Assembly (NCBI GenBank): GCA_030847615.1
Contig: JAUMIR010000001.1
Span: 184,035,001-184,099,000, forward strand
DNA: 64,000 nucleotides
Source: Gambelia wislizenii
Taxonomy: Eukaryota; Chordata; Lepidosauria; Squamata; Crotaphytidae
Direction: 5' to 3'
Position numbers and translations under genes: made by a program. The notes below the pieces were generated by a model. That model saw nothing but the letters and a program-made list of their open reading frames with translations, was not told the DNA's origin and searched no databases. Shown piece by piece: positions 14,986-32,561 of this stretch. Every line of letters starts with the position of its first letter. Within the stretch, counting starts at the first letter, position 1.

Positions 14986-15411
14986 TAACTCCTTTGATAA
15001 CCACTCACACAAATCTGTGCCCCCCACCTCTGTGATCCAGTGTTTCATTTGAAATCAAATGCCTCTTATGCCTATTACTAGAGGACATATCCAATAAAAA
15101 GACACGTAGGAGAGGAACGCTCACCCTCAGCCAGTGTTGCTTGATGGAAAGATATGAATTTTGTATCACAGCTATTTTAAATGTATGCCATTCTGCATCA
15201 TCTTATTTCATTCTGTGCTTTTGCCATTTAAATGGGTAGAAAAGTAGAATAAAATGTTTTAAGTAAATAAAAATATATGACTTAAACAGTAATATAAGGA
15301 TAATGGCAACATTGCACTGGTCCTCATCTATCAAAGATATTTTTCTTTAAATTCTTTCCACCTGGAATGTGTGTCCCTCTAAAAATAGTTTGTTTTTTTA
15401 TTGTTCCCTAG

Positions 15412-15757
15412 AACAAGTTCAAAATTAAAAGAGGATGTGAAGTCAGAAAAGAAAGCTGGATTTTGGGACAGTTTGGTGACAAAACAGAACATCCCGTCCA
15501 GGAAGCCAGATGAGATTGAAGGATGGGAGCCCCCGCAGATTCCTGCCGGTGACCACCTCAGTGATGCAGGAAATGCTTTAAGTGACTATTCATCTTGGTC
15601 AGGCTGGGAAGATGAAACCAAAGGCTCCACAAAATACACAAACCTGGCAAGTTCAGGAAATAGTTCACGGTGGAGTATCAAATCAGCTGGGAGATTGGTT
15701 AGCATTAGGCGACAAAGCAAGGGTAACCTTACTGATAACTGGGAAGAACTAGAATGA
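15412..15757 (+). CDS. TDRP: TDRP terminal coding exon with stop codon
   Basis: The exon begins after a pyrimidine-rich acceptor (ttgttccctag) and ends at TGA 15755-15757. Its first base completes the glycine codon split from the previous exon, followed by 114 codons. Landmarks in order: KSEKKAGFWDSLVTKQNI, KPDEIEGWEPP, SSWSGWEDETKGSTKYT, SSRWSIKSAGRLVSIRRQSK, and an acidic end EELE. These match the C-terminal two thirds of TDRP. With the previous exon it gives 149 residues, leaving about 35-40 for the missing first exon. An upstream in-frame ATG at 15401 lies in intron sequence and is not a start. Confidence 0.95.
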
Positions 15758-22647: not shown

Positions 22648-23711
22648 TATCATAGAATCATAGAATTGCAGAGTTGGAAGAGACCACGAGGGCCATCCAG
22701 TCCAACCCCCTGACACGCAGGAAATCTTGATCAAAGCATCCCCGACAGATGGCCATCCAGCCTCTGTTTAAAGACCTCCAAGGAAGGAGACCCCACCACG
22801 CTCCGAGGGAGTGTGTTCCACTGCCGAACAGCTCTTACTGTCAAAAAGTTCCTCCTCATGTTGAGGTGGAATCTCTGTTCCTGGAGCTTGCATCCATTGC
22901 TCCGTGTTCCAGTCTCTGGAGCAGAAGAAAACAAGCCTGCTCCATCCTCAGCGTGACATCCCTTCAAATACTTAAACAGGGCTATCATATCGCCTCTTAA
23001 CCGTCTTTTTTCCAGGCTAAACATACCCAGCTCCCTAAGTCTCTCCTCATAAGGCATCATTTCCAGACCTTTCACCATTTTAGTTGCCCTTCTCTGGACA
23101 CGCTCCAATTTGTCAATATCCTTTCTGAATTGTGGTGCCCAGAACTGGACACAGTATTCTAAGTGAGGTCTGACCAAGGCAGAATAGAGTGGCACTATTA
23201 CTTCCCTTGATCTAGACACTATACTTCTATTGATACAGCCCAAAATCGCATTGGCCTTTTTAGCTGCCGCATCACACTGTTGAGGCATGTTCAACTTGTG
23301 GTCTACTAGGACTCCTAGATCCCTTTCGCACGTAGTCTCATTCAGCCAGGTCTCTCCCATCCTATATTTATGCATTTCATTTTTCCGCCCTAAATGCAGT
23401 ACTTTACATTTCTCCGTATTGAATTTGATTTTGTTAGCTTTGGCCCAGCTCTCCAGTCTATCCAGGTCATTCTGAATTTTGATCCTGTCCTCCAGGGTAT
23501 TAGCTACTCCTCCTAATTTGGTGTCATCTGCAAATTTGGTAAGTATGCCCCTAATTCCCTCATCCAAGTCATTGATAAAGATGTTGAATAGCACTGGGCC
23601 CAGGACAGAACCCTGTGGCACCCCACTGGTCACATCTTTCCAAGACAAAGAGGAGCCACTGCTGAGCACCCTTTGGGTTCGGCCGGTCAACCAATTACAA
23701 ATCCATTGTAT
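22648..23711 (-). mobile_element. CR1 LINE, 3' part of ORF2 and 3' UTR
   Basis: A long open - strand frame (23690-22731, 319 codons) encodes the second half of CR1 reverse transcriptase: [29 protein letters not shown] (the catalytic Asp pair), then SALVRPHLEYCVQFWAP and RRATKMVKGLE. The 3' end at about 22648-22670 carries CR1's characteristic short tail repeats (attctatg units). It is 5' truncated and lacks the endonuclease. The intact frame suggests a younger insertion. Confidence 0.95.
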
Positions 23712-23958
23712 AATAATTGATCATTTTGTCAAGAAAATGCAATCAAAACCATTTCTGTTTGGTTGGGATTGTCTTGCTAAACTATTTAGGTTAGGGTTAA
23801 GGTTAGGATTAGGGTTATTTTCAATTATCAATAATATAAATTGACAATAACACTAATCTTAAGCCTAACCCTTTTCCAAATGGTTTTGCAAGACAATCCC
23901 AACCAAACAGAAATGGTTTTGTTTGCATTTTCTTGTCAAAATGATCAATTATCAATTG
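23712..23958. repeat. Foldback element with telomere-like repeats
   Basis: Two arms of about 105 bp are inverted copies (shared words attgatcattttg, aagaaaatgcaa and ctgtttggttgggattgtc), with a short AT-rich loop near 23822-23850. The inner part of each arm is degenerate TTAGGG (23785-23817: ttagggttaaggttaggatt). It directly abuts the truncated 5' end of the CR1 copy. Confidence 0.75.
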
Positions 23959-28274: not shown

Positions 28275-29139
28275 TCTATCTATATAATTCTCTTGGGTAT
28301 GTTGCCATTTCCAGTGTGCTGATTGGCTGCTTAGGAAACTGACCAAACAATCAGAGTTTGGTTGGGCAGTCAATCAGCACACTGGGGGTGGGAACATGTG
28401 GATCTTTAGGGCAGAGGAGGTGTGAGTAGCACATGTGTGTGCACGGGCACACAGGGGGGAGGGCAGTGCATGGGGAGGGCGCCAAGGGTGTGGGGTGATG
28501 GTGGTGTGGGCACAGGGGGGCAGCGTGGGGGCGGGGGAATTCAGGGAGGGCGGCACAGGTGTTGGGTGGTCGTGTGAGGGTGGCATGGGTTTGGGGAGGG
28601 CGGAGCAGCCACAGTGCCTTGGGCGTGGGTGGTGGGTGGCAGGAGGGCAGCGCAGGCAATGTGGGGAGGGCAGCATGGAGAGGGAGGTGCAGGCAGGGGG
28701 CAGTGCAGGCATGGGGAGGGTATGGGGAATGCGGGGAGGGCTTTGGGGAAGGCAGGGAGGGCAGTGCAGGGCATGAGGGGGTGCAGGCTGCGCGGGTGCA
28801 GGTGAATGCGGGAAGGGAGGCGCAGTGAGGAGAGTGTGAGGATGGTGTGAGTTTGGGGAAGGCATGGGGGTACATGGGGAGGGCGGCATGGGGAGGGTGG
28901 CATGGGAAGGGTGGCATGGGCGCAGGCAGTGGTGTGAGGGTGGCGTGGGCGCAGGGAAACATGGGGAGGGCAGCACGAGGAGGGAGGCACGGGGGTGGTG
29001 CAAGGGCGGCACTGGAACGGGGAGGGTGGCATAGGCATGGGGGATGGCACAGGGAGGGGCATGGAGGCGGCGTGTGTACTGCTGGGAGGGAGTGTAGCGT
29101 ATGGGGGGGAACGGTGTATGTTACACCAGATATAGCTAG
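28275..29139 (+). mobile_element. Non-autonomous Helitron containing G-rich minisatellite
   Basis: It begins TCTATCTATATAATTCTC and ends with CTAG. A perfect 6-bp-stem hairpin (GGTGTA-tgt-TACACC) lies 8 bases before CTAG. It is inserted between host A (28274) and T (29140). These are the canonical Helitron termini. The interior from about 28440 to 29080 is a degenerate G-rich tandem array with 'gggagggcggcatgg'-like units; long ORFs on both strands there are compositional artefacts. No Rep/helicase is present. Confidence 0.8.
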
Positions 29140-29177
29140 TAAATATATATTGTATCTAAGTTACTTGCAAACTAGCA

Positions 29178-29232
29178 AATATATAGTCCTCAAATAGAGG
29201 ATGTATCAGCTATTAAACTGATAAGAAGAGAT
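29178..29232 (-). pseudogene. RNU2 pseudogene: U2 snRNA 3' continuation (nt 38-92)
   Basis: Aligned by hand to U2, about 49 of 55 positions agree, with differences at nt 42, 60, 68, 77, 78 and 85. It covers the stem-loop IIa/IIb region (ttatcagtttaata, ctgatac, cctctat..gagga) and the Sm-site-side ATATATT. It resumes essentially where the 5' part stops, with up to 4 bases (nt 38-41) present on both sides. Confidence 0.92.
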
Positions 29233-29338
29233 TAATTGGTTTATTAGAGAATGTTTAGCATACATTTTAACATAACAACACATAGTAATACATAATAGAT
29301 CCAAAGAATGCAATTCCAGAAAAAATTACAATAGAATA

Positions 29339-29720
29339 ATACCATTGCTCTGTGTTCCAGTCTCTGGAGCAGAAGAAAACAAGCCTGCTCCATCCTCAGC
29401 CTGACATCCCTTCAAATACTTAGACAGGGCTATCATATTGCCTCTTAACCATCTTTTTTCCAGGCTAAACATACCCAGCTCCCTAAGTCTCTCCTCATAA
29501 GGCATGGTTTCCAGACCTTTCACCATTTTAGTTGCCCTTCTATGGATATGCTCCAATTGTCAATATCCTTTTTGAATTGTGGTGCCCAGAACTGGACAGA
29601 GGCTGGATTGCCATCTGTTGGGGATGCTTTGATTGTGATTTCCTGCGTGGCAGGGAGTTGGACTGGATGGCTCTCGTGGTCTCTTCCAACTCTACAATTC
29701 TATGATTCTATGATTCTATG
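29339..29720. mobile_element. CR1 insertion with inverted 5' part
   Basis: 29339 to about 29596 is CR1 RT sequence in - orientation (RRATKMVKGLETMPYEERLR). About 29597-29720 is the CR1 3' end in + orientation (ggctggattgccatctgttg through tail repeats attctatg). The parts meet at a short overlap (acag), and the CR1 sequence normally between them is missing. This looks like a single LINE insertion with 5' inversion. Confidence 0.75.
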
Positions 29721-29829
29721 AATATATAGAGAGCAAATCTCATTCCTAGGATAAGTTAAAATTATTAAAATATATTTTAAAGAAACAGCACATACTAAAA
29801 GGAGACCAATAATACATTTTACCTTCAGA

Positions 29830-30207
29830 TCACAATGTGAATCTCCAAGCTTCAAAGGTATCTCCTTCTTTAAGATGGACCATGGGTTTCCCTTTGATGG
29901 TAAAGGGAGTTGATAAAACCCGGTCTTTTAAGCTACAATTAACATGCAGCGTTGCACACTTGTTGGAATTAAATTGCAGACCCATCCAATCTGCAACATG
30001 TGCAGTCACATTTAACATGTGTTGGAGGTATTCAGGCTTCTCAGGTACCACAACCAGATCATCAGCATAGGCTAGAATGTTCGCTTCATTTCCATACAAG
30101 TTGAAACCTCTGGGGCCGTTGATGAAATATTGGAGGAGGGGCTCCATAGCGAGGTTAAAAATAATTGGGCTGAGTGGACAACCTGTTTTACCCTGTAACG
30201 GACCCAA
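29830..30207 (-). pseudogene. Reverse transcriptase fragment of the U2-inserted element (YADD part)
   Basis: A 125-codon stretch carries GCPLSPIIFNLAMEPLLQYF and the catalytic LAYADDLVVV motif, then a thumb-like region VADWMGLQFNSNKC that is typical of R2/NeSL-type elements. It is out of frame with the upstream RT fragment. Confidence 0.87.
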
Positions 30208-30432
30208 ATTTTTACAGTCTCACCTTCTGCAGTCCGCACTGTAGTGCTACAGTTACAGTAATTTGGGAAGAAGATTGAGAAATGTTGAGGGCTGAGTAAG
30301 ACAACAGTTTTACCCCGCAACGGACTCGAATTTCTGCAGTCTCGCCTTCCACAGCCCGCATTGTAGTGTTACAGTTGTTGTAAAGTTCATGGAGAAGATT
30401 GAGAAATGTTGAGGGCACGCCCAGTTCTGTCA
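30187..30432 (-). repeat. Internal tandem duplication of about 122 bp in the RT
   Basis: Copy A at about 30187-30307 and copy B at about 30308-30432 share 'agattgagaaatgttgaggg' with offset 124, and ttttacccYgYaacggac with offset 121. They are diverged by roughly a tenth of positions by eye. Confidence 0.85.
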
Positions 30433-30814
30433 AGGTTTCTAGAATGTACCAGGCAGGAACAGAGCCAAAAGCATTGCTGATGTCAAGCCAAGCCACAGCG
30501 CACTCTTGTCTGGTGCGACGAACAATGTTGAGGACTGTTTGGATTAAGAAATTATGTTCATAGCAGCCCTCACACGACATAAATCCTTTCTCTTGAGGGC
30601 TGACTATGTGGCCTGTAATGGCCCAGTCCGTGACTCTGGCGGCAATGCAGCTTGCGTATATTTTGTAAATGGTCCTACAGAGTGAAATTGGACACCAGTT
30701 ATTAGGGTCCGTAGGATCATCCTTCTTATGAATAAGGACGATCATAGCTTGTTTCCAGGTGGTCGGCGTATAGCAGACCTGCTTGGTATGAGTGAATATT
30801 TCCATTAAAACCAA
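30212..30814 (-). pseudogene. Reverse transcriptase fragment of the U2-inserted element (N-terminal RT motifs)
   Basis: A 200-codon open stretch carries RT motifs 1-3: NWCPISL, the EGCYEHNFLIQ region and LDISNAFGSV with the first catalytic Asp. The last about 60 codons run out of the conserved frame because the segment encoding LHELYNNCNTTMRAVEGETA is duplicated. The initial Met is not a true start; homology continues upstream to about 30910. Confidence 0.85.
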
Positions 30815-30971
30815 GCAGCCAGGATCATATTTCTTTAATAGGTTGTATTGGATGCCATCCTTGCCTGGAGCTGTGTTCTTGGCCCTCAGTAGTCTTGCCT
30901 CGACCTCCTGGGGATAAAGTCCCTTAGGAGCATGGTGTTCAATTCCTCATTGGCTCTTGGGAGCTTGGCTA

Positions 30972-31012
30972 AGATACTACGCTTGATCTTAGCCAAAAGG
31001 CTGAGAAGCGAT
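30972..31012 (-). pseudogene. RNU2 pseudogene: U2 snRNA 5' part (nt 1-41)
   Basis: Aligned by hand to remembered vertebrate U2, 39 of 41 positions agree, with changes at nt 11 (G to A) and nt 32 (U to C). It includes the branch-point recognition region (nt 33-38, GTAGTA). U2-like sequence stops at nt 41 and retrotransposon sequence follows. No snRNA promoter element is recognisable upstream. Confidence 0.93.
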
Positions 31013-32561
31013 AGCAAACTAGCAAATAATGAGTATAGGGAATGCAGAGGTTCCTAATTCTTAATGCCAGGGGAGTAAAAGCACTAAAAAGCCAGTCTTG
31101 GAGACTGCATGCAGTCCCAGGTTGGACTTTGCCCACCCCTGATTTACAACTGGAGCTTGGAAAATGTGCAATGGCCAAAGAAGAGCCTGTGCTGGTTGGG
31201 GGAATTCTGGGAGCTGTAACAGCCAAACATCATTTTTCCAAGCTGTGGTTCTGCACCATACACATGTCCACAAAATGAAATAAATAAATAACGCAGGCAA
31301 AACCCTTTTTCTATAATATTAAGACAAGCTTTTGGGAACTGGTAAGTAAGGAAGGGACTTTTAAGAAAGGGATGCCACACTTTTAATTGGTTTTAAAATG
31401 GCTTTTTAAATTTTAAATAAATTTTAAATTCTAAATAAATAAATAAATAAATAAATGTTAAATAAAATTAAACCTTGATATATCTAAAGAGATACTTGCT
31501 TTGTATATTCAACCTGCATTAAGAGACTTTTACTTGTATGCCATAAAACTTAACCTAGAGAGACTCTGCAAATCTTAACCATGCAAGGGGTTCATAGAGA
31601 AATGTTTGTTTCTATTGTCCCTTTTTTACTGGAAGAAAGTATGCCTAATTCAACTGATGTTGTAATTTTGAAGTGGTGAAAAGGATTTCTTGTACAGTTT
31701 TCCTTTGGCTTCACAAAGCCTATTAAAAATCCACCTGGGAAAAAAAGCCTTTTAAATCCAGTTGTTTTTAATATGATAATCTGTTAAATTGTGTTTTCAT
31801 ACAATAATTTACTGTTCTTTGTCTATTTTAAAACCCTTGTTCTGAACCACCTTGAGTCCCAGTTTTGGAAGAAAAGTGGGCTATAAATCAAATCAACCCA
31901 TGTGATTATGTAAACTTCCATTCCCATAAATTAGAGATGTTCCCACAAAGAGTTGTGAATGATCCAGAATAAAAGAGAAGGTTGGATGTGGGTGCACCAG
32001 GGAGAAATTTCATTGTGCAGGCCTGCTCTGATTCATATTACATCAAGCCAAACCTTTCTCCCAGTGTCTATACAACAAGATTATTTGCATCCTCTCTACA
32101 GTACTGATGCAGTTTCTTCAGGCGTCATAAGTCTTAGAAAGCATTGGTTCCTAAAGCCGTTATTGTATACAATGTCTTCATTTTTTTAAATAAAAGTCTC
32201 TTTGCCAACAGAATGCCAGGCCCCCAGACATTTAAAACAATGATAAAAGCTTGCTTCTTCACTTGAGCATTCTCTGAAATTGATCTTATATCATCCCCCT
32301 CCTGTTGTGCATTTAGGCTTTCTCATATTGTAACCTTGTGCCTTTCCATTTACATGCAGACCCTAGTTTATGTAGGCAGCTGGCCAATGTGCATATATAT
32401 GGAAAAAACATCTACATGTCTCATTAGGGTATAACATACGTGCTTTTCATAAGGTAAAGTCAAATTTATGTAGGAAAAAAAATTAGGTAAGCAGTTCATG
32501 ATAGCTTGTGTATTATATCACTGTCCTTTGCTCCTTTCTAGAATTTCTTCTGTTTCAAGTA

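Follow-up and report, generated by a model that had tools for sequence, protein, structure and literature searches.

In a 64,000-nucleotide (nt) stretch of the genome of the lizard Gambelia wislizenii (contig JAUMIR010000001.1 of assembly GCA_030847615.1, positions 184,035,001 to 184,099,000; hereafter the window), a decayed reverse transcriptase (RT) lies between two parts of a U2 small nuclear RNA (snRNA) sequence that share one orientation. We consider, with a probability of roughly 0.77, that a 5'-truncated long interspersed nuclear element (LINE) of the Utopia type entered a 92-nt U2 retropseudogene, made by an earlier LINE, through target-primed reverse transcription at U2 nt 38-42. The element belongs to a known kind and is present here as one decayed copy; the point the locus adds is its target, probably a promoterless U2 fragment of 92 bp. 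The two U2 halves, numbered like all features below from the first letter of the window, are as follows.

31012-30972, minus strand: U2 snRNA nt 1-41 (5' half), 39/41 identical to U2; Rfam RF00004, E = 1.4e-6
29232-29178, minus strand: U2 snRNA nt 38-92 (3' half), 49/55 identical to U2; Rfam RF00004, E = 5.9e-5

Joined at nt 41/42, the halves give a gap-free U2 sequence of nt 1-92 in which 84 of 92 positions are identical to vertebrate U2. Local alignment of the halves scored 37 and 43, and the highest score among 200 dinucleotide shuffles of 29100-31100 was 15. RF00004 also matched each half separately, at 42.8 and 36.1 bits, in a permissive search of 3 kb; the default Rfam scan of the window returned no U2 match because each half alone scores below the family's gathering score of 46. 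Nucleotides 38-41 (ATCT) are found on both sides of the insert, repeated from the 5' half, and U2 past nt 92 is missing at the locus. An earlier note on this DNA had placed the two halves at these positions and asked for their alignment to U2; the alignment, whose scores lie far above the shuffled maximum, and the independent RF00004 matches agree with it, and the observation of an RT flanked by U2 is confirmed. Its statement that no U2 sequence was lost holds for nt 1-92 at the insertion point and fails beyond nt 92, where U2 is absent.

The coding remains between the halves consist of two RT pieces and a duplication that spans their boundary.

30190-30971, minus strand: first part of a 5'-truncated, probably Utopia-type RT; Pfam RVT_1, tblastn, and reading frames compared with turtle proteins
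29833-30189, minus strand: second part of the RT; RVT_1 at 4.3e-14; stops after GDTFEA
30167-30416, minus strand: tandem duplication of about 124 bp within the RT (30289-30416 and 30167-30292); 104/125 aligned bases identical

Both pieces match Pfam RVT_1 (E = 4e-11 and 4.3e-14) in the orientation of U2, just as the earlier note had read them. The reading frame changes at CCCC (30913-30910), and the tblastn match to turtle proteins spans 30913-30308. In turtle protein P0203, the LPR matching the first coding stretch of the window is preceded by 96 residues; in the window, that stretch is read in a different frame from the rest. At the other end, turtle protein P0186 continues for 336 further residues past the point corresponding to the last RT residues of the window, and these 336 residues are missing from the window RT. 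Pfam finds RVT_1 alone in P0186; a Cys-His stretch begins at its residue 558, which may mark the restriction-like endonuclease (RLE) region expected at the C-terminus of Utopia. By these comparisons, the copy is 5'-truncated, and its C-terminal part was likely lost later.

Against sequences of the PDB, the RT of the window matched R2 proteins better than LINE-1 proteins (3.4e-19 vs 2.6e-9). P0186 likewise matches R2 better than LINE-1 (2.1e-54 vs 2.3e-22), over the RT and beyond. The 40 database proteins retrieved comprise 17 from turtles, three from alligators, three from beetle, coral and spider, and 17 without an organism name, with no lizard named among them; the best-scoring of these 40 covers 83% of the query at 56% identity. 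Searching more widely with an alignment of 21 rows produced 792 hits, the listing covering the best 120, and the RT alignment gave 35 pattern matches in viral contigs, with no relative among those 35. The RT tree has 32 chosen rows, made up of the window, 28 proteins from the database and three stretches of R2; its midpoint root serves for drawing only. The window shares a group (97/99) with two rows from alligator and five from turtles, and the three R2 rows stand apart. Inside that group, the window joins the alligator rows at 84/70, and by path its nearest row is a turtle protein. R2 is likewise a sequence-specific LINE of the RLE type with a related RT, and it differs in its target, which is 28S ribosomal DNA. 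An identity with R2 was rejected since the target here is U2 and the R2 rows are separate in the tree.

The insertion site points to the same kind of element. The downstream U2 match begins at nt 38, and the junction is ambiguous over ATCT, so that it is compatible with the 38/39 position of Utopia. In Phytophthora, U2 downstream of Utopia begins at nt 39, and the 3' boundaries are called precise across families (Kojima and Jurka 2015, PMC4640811, main text). The sense insertion into U2 seen here places that published start inside the ambiguity. According to the same text, Utopia hosts include Alligator mississippiensis, three turtles and Anolis; reptile Utopia is weakly specific for U2, which flanks few reptile copies, and the termini of the Anolis elements were undetected. 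Duplications of 20 bp are reported there for reptile families, target-site duplications (TSDs) are rare in crocodilian copies, and arthropod families make none. From the RT kinship, the published host list and the insertion site, the insert is likely Utopia. It resembles members of the NeSL clade such as Utopia-1_AMi in a U2 site compatible with 38/39, its sense orientation, its R2-type RT and a host range that includes Anolis (PMC4640811), and it differs from reptile Utopia in its likely target, a truncated U2 retropseudogene, in an overlap of 3-4 bp, in its 5' truncation and in its internal deletion.

What surrounds the U2 halves bears on the nature of that target.

31014-31028, minus strand: 5' copy of a 15-bp direct repeat, likely the TSD of the U2 retropseudogene; 15/15 identical to 29167-29181
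29167-29181, minus strand: 3' copy of the repeat, overlapping U2 nt 89-92 (TATT); direct-repeat search and sequence

The perfect 15-bp repeat adjoins U2 nt 1 and nt 92, with a single extra T (31013, minus strand) between its 5' copy and nt 1. Its outer ends coincide with 29167-31028, the very interval delimited by the earlier note, whose text did not mention the repeat itself. A consensus scan of the 118 nt upstream of U2, made with a proximal-element consensus, found no convincing U2 promoter element; the best score, 12/18 at 7-24 nt upstream, overlaps the direct repeat and equals the 99th percentile of the window, whose maximum is 15. Because of the 15-bp repeat, the lack of U2 past nt 92 and the lack of a convincing promoter, the target was likely not a U2 gene and is likely a truncated, probably promoterless 'tailless' retropseudogene of 92 nt.

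Tailless retropseudogenes arise by internal priming through complementarity with the target, and their target consensus is TT/WAAAAWW (Noll et al. 2015, PMC5322556). That work screened for a nearly complete 5' end, the loss of 10 nt or more from the 3' end and a TSD of 8-35 nt; in its vertebrate survey, made with 5S ribosomal RNA and U2, the green anole was the only non-mammalian lineage with such copies, and short retropseudogenes of small RNAs are described as common in genomes with suitable LINEs. The copy in the window has a nearly complete 5' end and a 3' cut without an A-tail (U2 nt 1-92, followed by the direct repeat), and its duplication is identical at 15 of 15 positions, which lies within the 8-35 nt and at least 70% identity used for tailless copies. 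TATT of the target is shared with U2 nt 89-92, and the nick site, AT/TATTTGC, differs from the consensus. The likeness to the published copies thus extends to the start at U2 nt 1, the 3' truncation, the missing A-tail, the 15-bp repeats and a lizard host; the copy here differs in its nick site and in being split by a second LINE, at the place which that second LINE targets (PMC5322556).

The divergences suggest that the U2 copy and the Utopia copy are similarly old. The U2 copy differs from the reference by a Jukes-Cantor (JC) distance of 0.092, and the duplicated RT segments differ by 0.190, or 0.095 per copy, on the assumption that the duplication arose after the insertion. Since 0.092 and 0.095 agree within sampling errors that we estimate at near 0.03, the ages were taken as equal, and Utopia seems to have arrived either shortly after the U2 copy or at the same time. 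The first 24 aligned bases of the two duplication copies are identical and the rest are diverged, and this clock may be disturbed by partial conversion.

The 5' junction carries a hairpin.

30965-30996, minus strand: inverted repeat over the 5' junction, made of U2 nt 17-27 TTGGCTAAGAT (30996-30986) and ATCTTAGCCAA (30975-30965)

The hairpin of 11 bp spans the junction, and the seven base pairs past nt 41 (TAGCCAA) extend an inverted copy of U2 nt 17-23. Its fold has a z score of -4.40, and none of 200 shuffles was as stable. TAGCCAA possibly originated by fold-back self-copying of the top strand before it joined Utopia. At the matching place, where the window would encode leucine (L..LP), all six turtle proteins examined carry that residue, and for this reason the seven bases may instead be Utopia's own, their pairing being due to chance or guiding the join by microhomology.

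These features can be combined into a two-step history. A LINE would have nicked the chromosome and primed cDNA synthesis inside U2 RNA, TATT of the target pairing at nt 89-92; this priming step would leave a probably promoterless U2 fragment and a duplication of 11-15 bp. Next, the Utopia protein would have recognized U2 DNA somewhere within nt 1-92 and made a bottom-strand nick after nt 38, from which it copied its own RNA into cDNA. The Utopia copy may have halted prematurely at a point just 5' of the RT core, which would place the 5' junction at nt 41, and trimming of the top-strand end or microhomology joining before second-strand synthesis would account for the shortened overlap. During later decay, the C-terminal region would have been lost, about 124 bp duplicated and a CR1-like insert gained. 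The earlier note had proposed a fossil, Utopia-like sense insertion with a cut near nt 38-42 and a target kept on both sides, and the junctions, the turtle and alligator kin of the RT and the published site all speak for this proposal. U2 sequence is indeed kept on both sides; the target was likely a truncated retropseudogene with its own duplication rather than a U2 gene.

The composite could also have arrived in one event. An interrupted functional U2 gene might have been transcribed into a chimeric RNA (U2 5' part, Utopia, U2 3' part), which another LINE retrotransposed whole by priming at nt 89-92. Such an origin would agree with an outer 15-bp repeat that encloses the entire composite, with U2 nt 1 as the RNA start set by the U2 promoter, and with U2 and RT-duplication divergences that are equal within the estimated error, as if both parts had arrived together; chimeras that join LINE-1 to other RNAs have been described (PMC13174262). 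However, we regard this origin as unlikely: a U2 gene would have to be transcribed despite its interruption, and the long chimeric template would be a rare one, whereas small RNAs commonly give rise to short retropseudogenes in genomes with suitable LINEs (PMC5322556). A single insertion during which the RT jumped between templates twice, U2 RNA to Utopia RNA and then U2 RNA again, is far harder to accept. The RT of L1 does jump between LINE and snRNA templates, but the exit from U2 and the return to it would need to fall at one position, without a gap over the 84/92 join, and at the published Utopia site. The argument of the earlier note against a template-jump chimera is upheld by this gap-free join.

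A coincidental hit on the U2 pseudogene, by a non-targeted LINE or by a rearrangement, is quite improbable. It would suit the 3' flank of the element, which is without a Utopia assignment, and the weak specificity reported for reptile Utopia (PMC4640811); on the other hand, both the sense orientation and a junction at nt 38-42 in a 92-nt target fit the published site, and the RT has its kin in hosts with a reported U2 preference. A Keno-type element of the Tx1 clade deserves next to no credence. Keno shares the U2 target site of Utopia, with identical 3' flanking U2 sequence, and is set apart by its apurinic/apyrimidinic endonuclease (APE) and its clade (PMC4640811). The earlier note, which had named Keno beside Utopia, was right about the shared U2 site, and the APE endonuclease places Keno outside the R2 group. 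The RT of the window favors R2 over LINE-1, as does P0186, in a comparison made through R2 and LINE-1 proteins.

Several observations weigh against a Utopia insertion into an older U2 retropseudogene. The 109 nt directly before U2 (29233-29341) are a putative 3' untranslated region of Utopia, and the overlap at the junction is 3-4 bp (TCT or ATCT), in place of the 20-bp duplication of reptile Utopia. The departure of AT/TATTTGC from TT/WAAAAWW counts against a standard L1 origin of the U2 copy, and the equal ages suit the chimeric RNA too. In the tree, the alligator rows occupy 36-38% of the columns and their grouping with the window has 84/70. The name Utopia is based on the junction, the host list and the kinship in a tree of database proteins and R2 stretches, and all the evidence comes from one copy of the family.

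If the two-step history is true, the locus is a natural deletion experiment, which caps the U2 DNA that Utopia needs at 92 bp. It would also suggest that the element can do without U2 transcription or the array context. A prediction that can be counted would follow, namely an excess of insertions at nt 38-42 over other positions in lizard U2 retropseudogenes. Targeted insertion also implies that the 3' ends of the family are followed by U2 from nt 39 or by U2-like sequence such as TCTGTTCTT. We further propose, as a doubtful extension, that U2 retropseudogenes spread by one LINE may act as promoterless safe landing pads for a U2-specific Utopia, which would need only U2 DNA within nt 1-92. A second element would in that case keep supplying harmless targets, and this may explain how reptile Utopia survived, with loosened specificity, despite few U2 genes. 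The word 'pseudogene' is absent from the main text of PMC4640811, and among the open-licence papers matched by a literature search, no title or abstract beginning concerns Utopia in a U2 retropseudogene.

The region between the RT and the 3' half of U2 contains three further segments.

29723-29832, minus strand: AT-rich stretch, perhaps the Utopia 3' region
29342-29722, no single strand: nested CR1-like insert in two parts of opposite orientation; related copy at 22649-23151
29233-29341, minus strand: putative 3' end of the element, 109 nt ending CTAATAAACCAATTA, directly before U2 nt 38

The AT-rich stretch has no BLAST match elsewhere in the window. The nested insert matches 22649-23151 at 95% over 258 bp and, in opposite orientation, at 92% over 119 bp; the match ends at 29714, and the end made of (ATTCTATG)n was followed by eye to 29722. 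The insert is called CR1-like from its motifs, not from a library. It seems younger than the Utopia copy, and its ORF-derived part (from an open reading frame, ORF) is inverted relative to its 3' end, which is consistent with twin priming. An open stretch of 329 residues at 22731-23720 (minus strand) is an RT-type LINE fragment, presumably of the CR1 type to judge from its motifs, and relatives of Utopia give weak tblastn matches within it at 23376-23714. A low-complexity tract (28350-29110), some 60 bp away from the 3' direct repeat, is C-rich on the minus strand and strongly strand-skewed, with repeats of 14 and 21 bp and long chance ORFs. An iguanian-like lizard as host is indicated by the sequence itself, since an exon of the gene for testis development-related protein (TDRP), elsewhere in the window at 15389-15754, shares 96% identity with Sceloporus undulatus and 95% with Anolis.

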